The position numbers and the translations under genes are program-made. Positions 128-24,559 of a DNA stretch of 36,874 nucleotides are shown here, one piece after another. The notes below the pieces were generated by a model. The model saw only the letters and a list, made by a program, of their open reading frames with translations. It was not told where the DNA came from and did no database searches. How positions within the stretch are numbered: position 1 is the stretch's first letter; each line of letters opens with the position of its first letter. The stretch lies in the IMG/VR virus record IMGVR_UViG_3300049727_000045, positions 1 to 36,874 of that record; one strand, 5' to 3'. Origin of the DNA: a virus.

Positions 128-300
128 TCAATTAGCATCCAATCTATCTTGTAACTCTTGACACCATTAAATGAATCATTCTTTAATGAAATGATTTTTG
201 CCAAAGCTGTTGTTCCGTCTGGTATTGTCGAGAAACTTCTAGAAAACGCATCCTCTGCGCTGCCAGATAAAGCTCCTAAATCGCTGCTCCAAAAACTCAT
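1..300 (-). CDS. DUF669/SSB-like ssDNA-binding protein, N-terminal part (gene crosses the window ends)
   Basis: This is the 5' part of a 185-aa gene that continues at 36747-36490 when the 127-bp repeat is merged. The start is ATG at 300-298, overlapping the TGA of the upstream ATPase gene (ATGA), with the strong ribosome site GGAGGAAG just ahead. The product begins MSFWSSDLGALSGSAEDAF and resembles phage DUF669 proteins. These sit beside recombination ATPases and are thought to bind single-stranded DNA. The C-terminus (see 36490-36874) ends in the acidic EDDIPF tail typical of bacterial SSB, which recruits partner proteins. The role as SSB partner of the adjacent Sak4-like ATPase is inferred from family knowledge and context. 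Confidence 0.8.
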   Translation of the reverse strand, partial: MSFWSSDLGALSGSAEDAFSRSFSTIPDGTTALAKIISLKNDSFNGVKSYKIDWMLIEGDFKGQHTFQKIKAFDQDPKVRHKALNMMVLIYKLFGISKPA

Positions 301-965
301 TCTTCTTCCTCCGATAATAAATCTGAATTGTAATATTCGCTTATTGTTTCTCGTATAACTGCTAAGTCATTGTCGATATACATTTCCTCAAACATAGAAA
401 TAGGACTCTTAGCAACACTTGTGCCATCATGCTGAGTAAGAAACTTATATTGTCTATCAACTATCTGACTGTGTAATACTATTGATACTCTTTCTGATAT
501 TCCCACATAGTCAGCAGTCATCTTGCCGACTGTTTTTGGCTTAATCACGCCTGCATGGTCTTTTTCAGTATGACACATAATAAAGCAAAACAAGTCTGTC
601 CTGAAATTCTTGCATGTTTCTAAGATGGTAAACATATTGCTAGCCATCTCGGTAAACTTATCGAATGTCTTTTCTCTACAGCGTCTCATGAACTCATTGT
701 TCATTAGAAAACTAAAATCATCGATGACTACAGTTTTTATATCAGGACGCCTTTCATTGATAGCGATAAGATATTGGTTGATCATTCTGTAGTCGTCAGA
801 CTCTAAGAAATTAAGACTTTCTTCATTATAGACTTTCTTGTAGCCTCTAAATGGAAGAGGCTTACTAAGGACATTGATGACGTATGTTTCTTTTGGATCT
901 AGATTGCGCATAGACGTTGATTTTCCGGTACCGCTCTCACCGAGTACTACAATTAGATTACTCAT
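297..965 (-). CDS. Sak4-like RecA-fold recombination ATPase (AAA_24 type)
   Basis: A 222-aa P-loop ATPase. Walker A GESGTGKST is at residues 9-17, Walker B TVVIDDF at about 78-84, and a RecA-like sensor stretch IMCHTE at about 129-134. Length and motif order match phage AAA_24 proteins, which include Sak4, a RecA-core single-strand annealing protein known to work with a cognate SSB. The next gene downstream encodes an SSB-like protein with an EDDIPF tail, so the pair probably promotes annealing and recombination of replicating phage DNA. The gene overlaps its upstream neighbour by 4 bases and its downstream neighbour by ATGA, indicating translational coupling in the leftward early unit. The Sak4 assignment is by motif and context; a generic nucleotide-binding protein is the alternative. 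Confidence 0.8.
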   Translation of the reverse strand: MSNLIVVLGESGTGKSTSMRNLDPKETYVINVLSKPLPFRGYKKVYNEESLNFLESDDYRMINQYLIAINERRPDIKTVVIDDFSFLMNNEFMRRCREKTFDKFTEMASNMFTILETCKNFRTDLFCFIMCHTEKDHAGVIKPKTVGKMTADYVGISERVSIVLHSQIVDRQYKFLTQHDGTSVAKSPISMFEEMYIDNDLAVIRETISEYYNSDLLSEEEE

Positions 966-1363: not shown

Positions 1364-1408
1364 ACTTCCTCTCTTTAGTTTACGTACTGCGGCGATTGCC
1401 GAACAGTG

Positions 1409-1437
1409 ATCATATGATATTTGACATATCATGTCTA
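1409..1437 (-). promoter_or_regulatory. Leftward early promoter (sigma70 type)
   Basis: On the minus strand TAGACA (1437-1432), a 17-nt spacer and TATGAT (1414-1409) form a good -35/-10 pair. It points into the recombination genes. It overlaps the rightward promoter at 1421-1448 and the operator at 1414-1432, so both cannot be used at once when the operator is filled. Confidence 0.7.
1414..1432. promoter_or_regulatory. Operator O1: ATGATA-N7-TATCAT
   Basis: The 19-bp sequence ATGATATTTGACATATCAT is a near-perfect palindrome. It contains the -35 hexamer of the rightward promoter and abuts the -10 of the leftward one. The same half-sites with the same 7-base spacing recur at 9268-9286. It is the likely site for the Cro-like protein encoded at 1468-1704. 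Confidence 0.65.
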
Positions 1438-1448
1438 TAGGTTACACT
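1421..1448 (+). promoter_or_regulatory. Rightward early promoter (sigma70 type)
   Basis: A perfect -35 TTGACA (1421-1426), a 16-nt spacer and TACACT (1443-1448) lie about 20 bases upstream of the Cro-like gene. The -35 sits in the centre of operator O1, so binding there should block this promoter directly. Confidence 0.7.
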
Positions 1449-2629: not shown

Positions 2630-4465
2630 ATGAGTATAGCACAAGTGATAAATATCAAGCAAGATAAGGTGTTTGGGGAAAATCAAGGTGTCTGGGAATA
2701 TAGAAGTTATGATAATGAATTTATTTGTTGTACGGTAAGAACAAAATATTTATCAAACGATAAGTGGGAAAAAAAAATAACCCCATGGACAATGCAAGAT
2801 GGAAAGTGGATCAACAAATTTCATTCTAATATTAAAAATAAATTAATTTATAACGAGCATTTATTAAAAATACATCCTAAAAAAACAGTTTTAATTGTAG
2901 AAGGTGAAAAAACCACTGATGCAGCATCAAAATTATTTACTGATTATGTATGTATAAGCTGGATGGGTGGTGCGCAAGCAGTTAAGAAAGTATTACTTGA
3001 TAATCTAGTCGGAAGAAAAATTATACTATGTCCTGATAATGATGAGCCTGGTTATGGAGCCATGGAATATCTTTATCAAGAACTTAGAAAATTAAAATGT
3101 GATGTGGCATTTGTAGATATTAAAAGACTTGGACTTACTCAGGGTTGGGATTTAGCTGATTTAAATGATCAACATGGTGAAATAGATTCAGAAGATATCT
3201 TTGAATTAATACAAGAAACAAAATTTAATAATAAAGACTTGCCGGTATTTTATAAATTAATGGATAAAATGACATTTCCTGATTTATCTACTAAATTTAA
3301 TCCCATAAATACATCAGAAAATATTGAAGAATTAGGTAAATTTTATAAATTAGAAATAAAATTTAATATGATGTCTAGAAAAATTGAATGCGAAGCTGAT
3401 GGCCAATTATTTAGTCTCCAGAATAAAAATGATTGTTTTTTTACTTATCTATCAAATTTATGCGTTCGAAATGGAGTTCCTAAAGTAGATTTGCATAATC
3501 ATTTAATTTATATCGCTGATAAATATCGTTATCACCCAGCTGTTGAATGGATTGAAAGTAAAGCATGGGATCGAATATCAAGAATAAAAGATTTTTTAAA
3601 AACTATTCAATCAGAAAATCAAGATTTGTCGAATAAGATAATTTATCGATGGATGATTGGTTGCATTGCTTCCCTTTATACGCCGCAAGGTATTTCTTTA
3701 GAAGGAATGCTCGTAGTTCAAGCACCACAGAAAATGGGTAAAAGTCATTGGTTTTTGAATCTTGTCCCTAGTGATAAAAGAAACTTAATCATAGATAGCG
3801 AATCTATAAATACTGATGATAAAGACGACGTTAAACGCGTTACAGGGCGTTGGATTTGTGAACTAGCAGAAATAGAGTCTACGATCAAAAAAACGAGCAT
3901 AGAGTCTCTGAAAGCCTTTATAACGAAATCTATTGATTGCTATCGAGTCCCTTTTGGAAGAACTGATGCTGATTATCCTAGAATGACCTCATTTTATGGC
4001 TCTGTTAATAGCGCTGAATTTTTAATTGATCAAACTGGAAACAGAAGGTTCTGGTGTATAAAAGCAAGTTCTATTAATCATGATCATAAAATGAATATGC
4101 AGCAAGTTTGGGCAGAATTTAAAGAATTATTTGATAATGGTCAATCTTATAGACTAACTGATGAAGAACAAAATCTGATAAATGAAGAAAATAAATTTTT
4201 TACGATAATAGATCCATTGGAACAAGCTATTTTAAATGCTTTTGACTGGACTAATCCGTATAGAAATTATCCAATGACCGCTTCCCAAGTATTAGAAAAA
4301 TTAGGCATTACAATAGCTCATCATAAAATAAATGGCTTTACTCGAAAAATAGGTTCGATACTTCGTAAATTATTAAAAACAGAACCACGCCAAAGTAACA
4401 AAAAACTGTTATTTGACATGCCAAATTGCATAATTAAAACAAATATAGATAGTATTAAATACTAA
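2630..4465 (+). CDS. TOPRIM-VapE primase-helicase
   Basis: A 611-aa replication protein. Residues 85-180 form a TOPRIM domain, with VEGEK at 90-94 and CPDNDEPG around 134-141. This fold makes RNA primers or opens DNA in phage primases. Residues 300-480 are a VapE/SF3-like P-loop ATPase: Walker A APQKMGKS at 365-372, an acidic strand RWICELAEIE at about 407-416, and an arginine-finger-like TGNRRFW at about 469-475. The C-terminal part (about 530-600) is helical and may bind DNA. The TOPRIM plus VapE fusion is typical of phages and satellites that bring their own primase-helicase but use the host polymerase, which fits the lack of a polymerase gene here. The candidate origin lies just downstream. 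The ATG follows AAGGA at 9 nt. The base composition is more AT-rich than in the late genes. Confidence 0.88.
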   Translation: MSIAQVINIKQDKVFGENQGVWEYRSYDNEFICCTVRTKYLSNDKWEKKITPWTMQDGKWINKFHSNIKNKLIYNEHLLKIHPKKTVLIVEGEKTTDAASKLFTDYVCISWMGGAQAVKKVLLDNLVGRKIILCPDNDEPGYGAMEYLYQELRKLKCDVAFVDIKRLGLTQGWDLADLNDQHGEIDSEDIFELIQETKFNNKDLPVFYKLMDKMTFPDLSTKFNPINTSENIEELGKFYKLEIKFNMMSRKIECEADGQLFSLQNKNDCFFTYLSNLCVRNGVPKVDLHNHLIYIADKYRYHPAVEWIESKAWDRISRIKDFLKTIQSENQDLSNKIIYRWMIGCIASLYTPQGISLEGMLVVQAPQKMGKSHWFLNLVPSDKRNLIIDSESINTDDKDDVKRVTGRWICELAEIESTIKKTSIESLKAFITKSIDCYRVPFGRTDADYPRMTSFYGSVNSAEFLIDQTGNRRFWCIKASSINHDHKMNMQQVWAEFKELFDNGQSYRLTDEEQNLINEENKFFTIIDPLEQAILNAFDWTNPYRNYPMTASQVLEKLGITIAHHKINGFTRKIGSILRKLLKTEPRQSNKKLLFDMPNCIIKTNIDSIKY

Positions 4466-5008: not shown

Positions 5009-5206
5009 TTATAATATTTTTGATTTTCCATCCTGTATTTCTCCATTGTTTATACGTTCTTGAATTTCTTCTCGATGAATAGAAATATCTATCGGAGCAT
5101 CTATGCCTATACGTCCTTGTCCATAGCTTCCAATGCCTAGAAAAGTTATTTTTATATTTTTATTGATGATGATTGATTGATTTTCTTTTCTGGTTAAAAT
5201 GAGCAT
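5009..5206 (-). CDS. csrA: CsrA-type post-transcriptional regulator
   Basis: A 65-aa protein matching CsrA over its full length: MLILTRKENQSIIINKNI, then RIGIDAP and IHREEIQERI. The RNA-binding residues of Escherichia coli CsrA are kept: Leu4, Arg6 and the HREEI arginine (Arg45 here, Arg44 in E. coli, owing to one extra residue in the loop GIGSYGQGR). CsrA dimers bind GGA motifs near ribosome sites to block or stabilise mRNAs. The start at 5206 is set by AAAGGA at about 7 nt; the longer frame upstream belongs to another gene. It is the promoter-distal gene of the leftward accessory unit. A phage copy may redirect host metabolism or time phage translation. The usual Val in QVRIG is Gly here. 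Confidence 0.93.
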   Translation of the reverse strand: MLILTRKENQSIIINKNIKITFLGIGSYGQGRIGIDAPIDISIHREEIQERINNGEIQDGKSKIL

Positions 5207-9236: not shown

Positions 9237-9267
9237 TTCATTCCCCGTTTAATGACTCGATGAAAGT

Positions 9268-9286
9268 ATGATACGCCACTTATCAT
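9268..9286. promoter_or_regulatory. Operator O2: ATGATA-N7-TATCAT
   Basis: ATGATACGCCACTTATCAT has exactly the same half-sites and 7-base spacing as O1 at 1414-1432, while the spacer bases differ. It covers the -10 of the leftward accessory promoter. The shared pattern suggests one regulator, most simply the Cro-like protein. Confidence 0.6.
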
Positions 9287-9296
9287 AGCCCGTCAA
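9268..9296 (-). promoter_or_regulatory. Promoter of the leftward accessory unit
   Basis: On the minus strand TTGACG (9296-9291), a 17-nt spacer and TATCAT (9273-9268) match the sigma70 consensus well. The first gene starts 32 bases further on. Operator O2 overlaps the -10. Confidence 0.7.
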
Positions 9297-9314
9297 TACA
9301 TTGATATATAAATA

Positions 9315-9343
9315 TTGAACACAGCCGATAAACCAGTTAGTAT
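9315..9343 (+). promoter_or_regulatory. Possible late rightward promoter
   Basis: TTGAAC (9315-9320), a 17-nt spacer and TAGTAT (9338-9343) face the terminase genes. The -10 is weak, so an activator or another promoter may be needed. Confidence 0.35.
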
Positions 9344-9370
9344 AAGGAAAAAGAAGGGTTATTAGATTGG

Positions 9371-9393
9371 TTGTCCACAGATTTTGGGGATAA
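9371..9393. promoter_or_regulatory. Pair of inverted DnaA-box-like sites
   Basis: TTGTCCACA (9371-9379) and TGGGGATAA (9385-9393, TTATCCCCA on the other strand) each differ by one base from the DnaA box TTATCCACA and face each other. They could bind host DnaA, either for replication or to tune late transcription. A chance match is possible. Confidence 0.35.
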
Positions 9394-9395
9394 GA

Positions 9396-9503
9396 ATGAA
9401 TGATTTTGCATGCGACATTGACGACAAAGAATCTCTAAATGCATATTTATTACGCGTTATGGATTATATCGAATATCTAAAGGAGCATTATGCGGTGTTA
9501 TAA
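9396..9503 (+). CDS. MNDF miniprotein at the head of the late unit (35 aa)
   Basis: Starts MNDFACDIDDKESLNAYLLR; a short acidic, helical protein. GGGG lies 6 nt upstream, and the next gene begins inside its end (overlap of 14 bases). The ATGAATGATTTT start repeats that of the MNDFTK genes of the opposite unit. Confidence 0.5.
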   Translation: MNDFACDIDDKESLNAYLLRVMDYIEYLKEHYAVL

Positions 9504-10195: not shown

Positions 10196-10271
10196 TGGGG
10201 CTTAGCTCAGCTGGTAGAGCATCAGGTTTTGATCCTGGTTGTCGATGGTTCGAGTCCATCAGTCCCTGCCA
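10196..10271 (+). tRNA. tRNA-Gln (anticodon TTG)
   Basis: A complete 76-nt cloverleaf. D stem GCTC/GAGC with GCTGGTA loop, anticodon stem CAGG/CCTG with loop TTTTGAT (anticodon TTG, reads CAA), T stem GATGG/CCATC with loop TTCGAGT, discriminator G and encoded CCA. The acceptor 5' strand TGGGGCT gives the U1 usual for glutamine tRNAs, but position 72 is T, so the first pair is U-U instead of U-A. The gene is wedged between the terminase subunits, 3 nt after terS and 12 nt before terL, in the same direction. It may supply CAA decoding for Gln-rich late proteins, and its processing would cut the terS-terL transcript. Confidence 0.93.
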
Positions 10272-16448: not shown

Positions 16449-16501
16449 GCCCGCAACCTCATAACTTAAAATGTTGTGGCTAATATTGCGGGCTTTTTTT
16501 T
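16449..16501. terminator. Bidirectional rho-independent terminator
   Basis: GCCCGCAA (16449-16456) pairs with TTGCGGGC (16486-16493), followed by eight T residues. Part of the loop can also pair (CAAC with GTTG). It ends the rightward transcript of the 334-aa gene and overlaps the 3' end of the leftward gene at 16500. Confidence 0.85.
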
Positions 16502-17078
16502 AGAATATTATTTTTGTTGGTTCTTCTACGTTTTTATAGAGCTCATGTTTCCTCAATGTTTTGTCGCTTAACTTTAGTAGCTCTTCATATTTCTTTTTAA
16601 GTTCAAGTATTTCAATTATGCGCAAATCGCATTCATTCTTAATTAATCCTTTCGCACCTTCTGTGATATTCTTAACTTCTTTAGAAAATCCCTCTATTTT
16701 TTCATTCAGAGGTAACTGTAGTTCTTGGGCTTTTTGTCCAAGCTCAATGGCGAGTTTAACACTATCTTTGACTTCATAAAGTGTATCTTTTTTGATACTT
16801 GCATAATCTTCGCGTATATTCTCGAGTTCTGTTCTGGTGTCTTGCAGGTATTGTTCATTATGAGCTTTGATAGTCCTAAACTCTGTGCGAATCTTTGTAT
16901 ACTTCTTATCCATTGATTGGTCTTTGAGGTTAATTTCATTGAGTGTGCCATCCACATCATGAATCTGCGCTCTTATTTTGTTTTCAATCGGTTTCCATAT
17001 CTCCATGAATATCTTTTCAATATGCGTTTCAATAATCTGTTTTATTTTACTCTCATTGATGCTAAGTTCCTTATTCAT
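16500..17078 (-). CDS. Coiled-coil protein of the leftward insert
   Basis: A 192-aa protein, helical almost throughout, with heptad-like stretches from about residue 45 to 175, no membrane segment and no Cys-rich site. It starts MNKELSINESKIKQIIETHI and overlaps the AlpA-like gene by 4 bases (ATGA). Opposite strand to the surrounding late genes, so it is an independently transcribed insert. It might be a host-modifying or exclusion protein; nothing in the sequence decides this. Confidence 0.65.
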   Translation of the reverse strand: MNKELSINESKIKQIIETHIEKIFMEIWKPIENKIRAQIHDVDGTLNEINLKDQSMDKKYTKIRTEFRTIKAHNEQYLQDTRTELENIREDYASIKKDTLYEVKDSVKLAIELGQKAQELQLPLNEKIEGFSKEVKNITEGAKGLIKNECDLRIIEILELKKKYEELLKLSDKTLRKHELYKNVEEPTKIIF

Positions 17079-17275
17079 TCTTTTTCCTTCATCTTATTTT
17101 TAAACCATTTATCAGTCTCATCCAGTGGATATAAGACCCTTCCATGATTACGTAACTGTATAAAATGCGGACCATAACCTTGTGCTCTTGCTCGATTAAA
17201 CCAAGATGAAGAATATCCGTAACGCTGAGCGGCTTCTTTCTCGGTCAAATACATATCTCCAATCATCTCAATCAT
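17075..17275 (-). CDS. AlpA/excisionase-like DNA-binding protein
   Basis: A 66-aa winged-helix protein: MYLTEKEAAQRYGYSSSWF (about residues 8-26), then the wing HGRVLYPLDETDKWFK. This is the AlpA/HTH_17 layout of small phage regulators and excisionases. With no integrase in the genome, a transcriptional role is more likely. Start at 17275 with AGGGA 6 nt upstream. The gene is divergent from the scaffold/coat genes, with a palindrome between them. Confidence 0.75.
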   Translation of the reverse strand: MIEMIGDMYLTEKEAAQRYGYSSSWFNRARAQGYGPHFIQLRNHGRVLYPLDETDKWFKNKMKEKE

Positions 17276-22707: not shown

Positions 22708-24559
22708 TAATCAAGCTATGCCCTTGGACCTGGTCGGTTCTAGTACATTTGGTAGATACGATAAGATAAGTGTCCAAAAAACACTAAACATGTTCGTTTC
22801 GGACAATTTTTTAGTCGATTACGCAGGCTACGAAATCATCATTTCATCAACATTATTAGGCAATGGAAGCGAAGGCCGCGGCATATTCACAAGCACAAAG
22901 CTAGGCATGCTTGTCGTCGTAATAGATGCAACTGTCTGGCTCATTCGAATTGGCTATAATCAAGTAACCGACCAACCTAACTTCGAACAAATATTCGAAA
23001 TTGGTAGTCTACAAACATCAACAGGTGTTGTGTATATCACCGAGAATAATAAACCTCAAATCCTATTCTCAGACAATGTGCATCTTTATATCTATGACAC
23101 AACCATTAGCGGAACTGTGCAAGTCGTTCCTAATTTGAATTTCACACCTGGCTACATAACATTCCATAATACATATTTTCTATGCGCAGCCTCTCAGGAT
23201 AATACATATTCACCGCCTGCTAATAACACATGGAGACTATCATTACAGAACCAAGGTTATCAGAATACGATCACATTCACTGGTTCCGGCACAACGGTAA
23301 CCCCAACTTCAGGTGGAAATTTTGCGACCGGTACGCCCGTTATAGCTATTGGTACATCGACATTAACCGCGGGAGCTACTTATTATATCGGAAACTATAC
23401 AGGCTCGACGTTTGAGTTATTTTTGTCGGCTGCTGATGCTGCATCATTGACTAATCCGCAAAACGTAGATTCGACTGGTAGTCTTGGATCAACCGCGTGG
23501 CCGTCAATAGCACAAAACGTAGGTCTAATATCAACCAAGCCTGATAACACGCAAGCAGTCGTAAGGTTCCCATCGAAAGGAAACATGATATTTGTAATGG
23601 GTTCCATTGTAACTGAAGCATGGTTTTTCACAGGAACTCAATTATTTCCATACCAACGAAACAATCAGTTCAACGTTGATTATGGCTGTATATCTCCCGC
23701 AACTGTAGCATATATGGATGAAATTGTTGTGTGGCTCGCTCAGAATGAGAAGTCAGGACCAATCATCATGTATTCAAATGGTGGCATGCCTAAGAAGATT
23801 ACGACTGATGGTATAGATTTTCTATTCTCCGAACTACAAAACCCTCAAGATTCACAGGGATTTTTATATCGACAAGATGGTCATTTGTTTTATCACATAA
23901 ATTTCTATAGCGATAATATTTCATTATTTTATGATTTTAATACCGATAAGTTCTATAACGCTTCAGACCAAAACATGAATTACTTTATTGCTGCTGAAAT
24001 AGCATTTATTGGTAATCAGTATTACTTTATAACTAAGAATAATGGCAACCTCTTTGCTTTCGATACAGCATTTACTGTATACCAAGATGTTGAATCAAAT
24101 ACTTCGACAACACCTAAGAATTATATTATTCCTAGAATAAGAACTTGTCATAATATCCGACTACCGTCACAAGAATATTTTATCTCCAATGATGTTGGCT
24201 TTACGATTGAAACGGGAGAAACGAATTATTATCAGCAACAAGAAAATCTTGGTGATGTTCAACCATTTGCATTATTGGAAGGCGGATTTTTTCTATTATT
24301 GAACGGACAAAACTTTGATTTGTTATCAGATACAGCGCCCGTTATTGCTGATACACCTAAAGTATTTTTGTCGATGTCCTATGATGGTGGTGCGGCTTTT
24401 GGAGCTGAATGGAAGTATGATTTGCCTGCGATTGGCAAGCGTCGTAATCGATTAATGTGGTGGCAGTGTGGCATTGGAAATGACATGGTGTGCAATTTTC
24501 GATTCCAATCAATTGGACGTTTCACGGCTACAGACGGAATTATGAACATTAGGACATAA
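22688..24559 (+). CDS. P22 gp10-like packaged-DNA stabilisation/tail hub protein
   Basis: A 623-aa protein. The start MVVRSSNNQAMPLDLVGSSTFGRYDKISVQKTLNM and the beta-propeller-like repeats through residue 480 are typical of P22 gp10 (472 aa), which plugs the portal and holds the needle and tail fibres. The extra length includes a beta module at about 194-270 (VIAIGTSTLTAGATYYIG). AAGGA, provided by the end of the HNH gene, lies 7 nt before the ATG. Confidence 0.8.
   Translation: MVVRSSNNQAMPLDLVGSSTFGRYDKISVQKTLNMFVSDNFLVDYAGYEIIISSTLLGNGSEGRGIFTSTKLGMLVVVIDATVWLIRIGYNQVTDQPNFEQIFEIGSLQTSTGVVYITENNKPQILFSDNVHLYIYDTTISGTVQVVPNLNFTPGYITFHNTYFLCAASQDNTYSPPANNTWRLSLQNQGYQNTITFTGSGTTVTPTSGGNFATGTPVIAIGTSTLTAGATYYIGNYTGSTFELFLSAADAASLTNPQNVDSTGSLGSTAWPSIAQNVGLISTKPDNTQAVVRFPSKGNMIFVMGSIVTEAWFFTGTQLFPYQRNNQFNVDYGCISPATVAYMDEIVVWLAQNEKSGPIIMYSNGGMPKKITTDGIDFLFSELQNPQDSQGFLYRQDGHLFYHINFYSDNISLFYDFNTDKFYNASDQNMNYFIAAEIAFIGNQYYFITKNNGNLFAFDTAFTVYQDVESNTSTTPKNYIIPRIRTCHNIRLPSQEYFISNDVGFTIETGETNYYQQQENLGDVQPFALLEGGFFLLLNGQNFDLLSDTAPVIADTPKVFLSMSYDGGAAFGAEWKYDLPAIGKRRNRLMWWQCGIGNDMVCNFRFQSIGRFTATDGIMNIRT

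Follow-up and report, generated by a model that had tools for sequence, protein, structure and literature searches.

A Cro-family repressor that probably silences two early gene clusters, far apart in its own phage genome, through a pair of 19-base sites

Genome organization and the two control regions

The window, i.e., the whole stretch of DNA analysed here, is an entire virus record of 36.9 kb. It carries a 127-bp direct terminal repeat and one gene reads through the junction, so that the record represents a complete phage genome, either circular or permuted. The genes are arranged in four transcription blocks, and the two divergent junctions represent the two control regions (Table 1). A temperate lambda-like immunity region, i.e., a CI/Cro switch with a partner CI and integration genes, is not apparent: no CI or integrase family was recognized among about 30 window proteins scanned, a set covering all but some of the shortest ORFs and a few of the virion proteins. 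The CsrA homologue is retained in most of the relatives that bear the Cro gene. A tRNA gene (10196–10268, plus strand) separates the genes of the two terminase subunits, small and large, and overlaps the start of the ORF listed for the large subunit, the true start of which is therefore probably downstream. Inside the rightward virion genes there is a leftward pair (16500–17275, minus strand) encoding an AlpA/excisionase-like helix-turn-helix protein and a coiled-coil-like protein; AlpA-like ORFs are found at the equivalent place in two relatives, G001 and L064.

Table 1. Coordinates of the features discussed, in window numbering
Feature	Position	Strand	Basis or remarks
Putative operator O1, ATGATA-N7-TATCAT, ATGATATTTGACATATCAT	1414..1432	.	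between leftward recombination operon and cro; same position in G001, L085
Putative operator O2, ATGATA-N7-TATCAT, ATGATACGCCACTTATCAT	9268..9286	.	between leftward accessory operon and rightward late genes; same position in G001, G002, L064, L085
Promoter PL1, TAGACA-17-TATGAT	1409..1437	-	consensus match and conservation in G001, L085
Promoter PR1, TTGACA-16-TACACT	1421..1448	+	consensus match; same layout in G001, L085
Promoter PL2, TTGACG-17-TATCAT	9268..9296	-	consensus match; same geometry in G001, L064, L085
Cro-family repressor gene, 78 aa	1468..1704	+	PHROG 409, E 7.5e-9; profile, predicted fold
Leftward recombination operon	from about 1372	-	Sak4, Cas4-type exonuclease, helicase
Sak4-like annealing protein, PL1 recombination operon	297..965	-	PHROG 2872, E 4e-66
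Rightward cro/replication unit	from 1468	+	
Primase/VapE-type helicase, PR1 replication unit	2630..4465	+	family searches
Leftward accessory operon		leftward	PL2; CsrA gene last
CsrA homologue, final gene of PL2 accessory operon	5009..5206	-	Pfam CsrA, E 3e-19
Packaging, virion and lysis genes	from 9490	rightward	

The preliminary description reported two 19-bp sites with identical half-sites, and both are present as described. With up to two mismatches allowed, ATGATA-N7-TATCAT has no other match in the window, and both of these are exact; the reversed pattern has none. Mere double occurrence is weak evidence, since a dinucleotide-shuffled genome is expected to contain 1.8 pairs of recurring perfect 6-bp inverted repeats (spacer 0–14), versus six in the window. 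Location is more telling: in none of 20,000 shuffles did the two control regions (1373–1467 and 9237–9489) have a perfect 6-bp inverted repeat (spacer 3–12) in common. The top motif of a blind search of the window, ATAATA-N7 (6/6 matches scored as intergenic), was set aside except at the two known sites, since its other four matches fall within or across short ORFs or the starts of genes. A Fur-type box was also considered and discarded, its spacing being different from that of the sites.

Both sites overlap good matches to sigma70 promoters, as originally noted, with two at site 1 and one at site 2. In PL1 (TAGAC[ATGATATGTCAAATATCAT]ATGAT, minus strand), O1 takes up the spacer exactly; the −35 box of PR1, TTGACA, forms the centre of O1. 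O2 covers the distal part of the spacer and the −10 box of PL2 (TTGACGGGCT[ATGATAAGTGGCGTATCAT]AC, minus strand), the leftward accessory promoter upstream of the CsrA gene. A weaker rightward candidate promoter, TTGAAC-17-TAGTAT, was recognized by eye at about 9316–9344, and a similar sequence is present in G001. Since this candidate lies about 25–30 bp beyond site 2, O2 cannot block it by overlap.

Several further elements are found around the two sites. The listed start of one ORF, at 1432, overlaps O1; a start at about 1360–1372, behind a ribosome-binding site, is more likely. At the predicted start of the leftward early RNA, about 10 nt past the −10 box of PL1, there is a hairpin (CGKC, loop of 4–7, GMCG; 1390–1401, minus strand), which is found in all 12 genomes compared (the window and 11 relatives, including L003, L013–L016, L019–L023 and L037). 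Its third pair swaps G-C for U-A and its first pair, in one genome, C-G for G-C, and the varying loop length favours an RNA hairpin over a second operator. Just to the right of site 2, DnaA-box-like 9-mers occur at fixed spacing (0, +12 and, reversed, +26) in G001, G002, L037 and G008 (contigs L003, L012, L037 and G008), and the window retains two degenerate ones (9371–9379, plus strand; 9385–9393, minus strand), making this stretch a candidate replication origin.

The protein encoded beside the first site

The gene adjoining the first site, previously termed Cro-like, is a genuine member of the P22/N15 all-alpha Cro family, as judged from its profile and predicted fold. The match of the 78-aa protein to Pfam P22_Cro (E = 4e-6, 26.9 bits) falls under the curated cut-off of 30.2, and its family profile matches P22 Cro (1rzs) with an E-value of 2.9e-7, placing it with known Cro profiles. 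The predicted structure has four helices, with a pLDDT of about 90 over residues 1–50, and shows the helical fold with a helix-turn-helix seen in N15 and P22 Cro. The top PDB fold matches of the model are the N15, P22 and Xfaso1 Cro proteins (E of about 0.006–0.05, probability 1.00). Relatives of the window protein were found neither among named phages nor in cellular genomes. The cro gene adjoins O1 in every relative that carries it. The recognition helix can be aligned with its counterpart in P22 Cro. Its sequence differs between relatives, reading MEHANYLNW in the window, MHHSNYLNW in G001 and MHHSCYLNW in L085.

Recurrence of the sites in related genomes

The stronger evidence for the sites comes from relatives, a family of contigs gathered by protein and motif scans of IMG/VR. 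In G001 (L003/L004), which has a terminase 91% and a Cro 72% identical to those of the window, the sites are ATGCTAATTGACTTAGCCT (site 1) and ATGATAAGTGATTTAGCAT (site 2), with promoters positioned as in the window. In L085, a contig recovered solely through its terminase homology, site 1 reads AAGCTAATTGACTTGTCAT and site 2 is a perfect ATGATAACTCACATATCAT; a third copy, ATGATAATACATTTAGCCT, is located on an additional leftward promoter within the accessory block. Thus, in both genomes the 19-bp element stands at unchanged promoter positions in both regions, with altered spacers and partly altered half-sites; site 1 is an imperfect palindrome in both. Site 2 of L064 is perfect but for a different spacer sequence, and it counts for less because this contig was found with a pattern fixing part of the site. 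G002 has a 19-bp ATGATAGCTCTCTTGTCAT at site 2, and its site 1 is 18 bp long, with the same half-sites 6 bp apart rather than 7. Across these genomes, the half-sites roughly follow A-T/G/A-G-A/C-T/C-A and the spacers are free. In five genomes whose spacers are dissimilar, the right half of O2 reads TATCAT, TAGCAT, TGTCAT, TATCAT and TATCAT. The conservation of O2 is partly explained by the promoter, since one of its half-sites doubles as the −10 box.

The half-sites ATGCTA, AGGCTA and AAGCTA of G001 and L085 accompany the change from MEHA to MHHS in the recognition helix. With three genomes compared, the apparent joint change of the helix and part of the half-sites between the window and G001/L085 is a lead rather than a proof.

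In G001, ATGMTA-N7-TAKCAT with at most one mismatch has six matches, five of them intergenic, versus 0.47 expected from shuffles, a count that is not fully independent since the pattern was drawn partly from the G001 sites. When every combination of 6-bp half-site and spacer was searched blindly, ATGCTA-N7 ranked first in this genome, with a p-value uncorrected for the many tests. The extra matches are doubtful as operators, because one is devoid of a promoter and one lies over a terminator-like hairpin. A third operator-like copy in G001 (24517–24535; L025:4517–4535) is identical to its site 2 at 18 of 19 bases, spacer included, and is located immediately ahead of an ORF that encodes a small membrane protein and is flanked by virion genes, at a place with no promoter-like match. 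An alternative palindrome at site 1 of G001, ATTGAC-N7-GTCAAT, was rejected, as it consists of the two divergent −35 boxes.

In the more distant relatives L037, L078, G003 and G008, whose gene order is unchanged, no operator common to both regions is visible, so that the shared element is documented for the near clade only. The palindromes of the two L037 regions differ from each other. The two divergent regions of G007 share promoter-like sequence without the same palindrome. Three sets of pattern matches were excluded: T4-like contigs matching O2 (the L043 group), set aside as unrelated; L066, matched by O1, which is unrelated and lacks the genes of this phage; and a perfect match in L068 (position 8783), located close to the 3′ end of a short rightward ORF rather than on a recognized leftward promoter.

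The proposed circuit and known Cro systems

We consider it likely that O1 and O2 are operators of one dimeric repressor, most plausibly the Cro-family protein, which would shut off PL1, PR1 and PL2. After infection, these sigma70 promoters would fire, driving the recombination genes, cro with the replication genes, and the accessory operon with CsrA, respectively. Cro accumulating from PR1 would then occupy O1 and, because this site extends over the spacer of PL1 and the −35 box of PR1, repress both PL1 and its own unit. On O2 it would cover the −10 box of PL2 and close the accessory operon, at a distance of 7.8 kb. Transcription of the recombination, replication and accessory units would thereby stop, with late transcription left free. 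The original suggestion of one regulator is supported as far as two operators over early promoters, the first of them beside cro, are concerned, with their geometry kept in G001 and L085. Its extension to the late units was not borne out, because site 2 overlaps the leftward accessory promoter only.

The sites could also be real shared operators with a different binder, either a host regulator or the AlpA/excisionase-like protein encoded at 17075–17275 (PHROG 66, E = 3.4e-8). The presence of this second DNA-binding protein, with equivalently placed counterparts in G001 and L064, lends the idea some weight, but cro directly adjoins O1 and autoregulation is the rule in the Cro family; the half-sites also differ among close relatives, which is easier to reconcile with a regulator of the phage itself than with an invariant one of the host. 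Hence, we regard a different binder as unlikely. It is quite improbable that O1 is a Cro operator which O2 resembles by accident, with its left half being the −10 box of PL2 (TATCAT) and its right half fortuitous. The different palindromes in the two regions of L037 would agree with such an accident, yet the right half lies in the promoter spacer, where there is no reason for conservation, and nevertheless recurs in the five genomes; moreover, L085 carries a second such promoter. A chance repeat in an AT-rich genome, although repeated inverted repeats of this size are expected, is highly implausible given the location of the sites and already largely refuted by their conservation in relatives.

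If Cro is indeed the binder, a single 78-residue protein would time the shut-off of recombination, replication and a CsrA-containing accessory operon without a lysogeny switch. More tentatively, this could be a CI-less phage lineage in which one Cro serves as a genome-wide clock for early genes, its scattered operators and recognition helix changing together from relative to relative as a natural series of paired repressor and operator variants; this is possible, though we would not lean towards it. The window, G001 and L085 form a ready set for studying such co-change, which, to our knowledge, has so far been addressed mainly in lambdoid phages.

As phage gene control, a two-site Cro circuit would be fairly ordinary. 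In lambda, one Cro represses several early promoters via repeated palindromic operators at OL and OR, and the circuit proposed here would work similarly. The six 17-bp operators of lambda (PMC4997575) are shared with CI, whereas each control region of the present phage has a single site, and what the second region drives is a CsrA-containing accessory operon. In family membership, by profile and predicted fold, the closest parallels are P22 Cro (PDB 1rzs, Pfam PF14549) and N15 Cro (PDB 2hin, 6on0), likewise small repressors encoded beside a divergent pair of early promoters. By contrast with P22 and N15, no CI gene was found alongside in the window, and a second operator is predicted at a distant accessory operon. 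The predicted operator is 19 bp long with 7-bp spacing, versus 16 bp in N15 and phiKO2 (PMC4997575). The telomere phages phiKO2 and PY54 also have Cro-type lytic repressors with operators overlapping promoters. However, the sole target of phiKO2 Cro is OR3, a single 16-bp operator (PMC4997575), and PY54 Cro is likewise described (PMC4488713) as binding OR3 only, whereas two sites in two regions are predicted for the Cro of the present phage.
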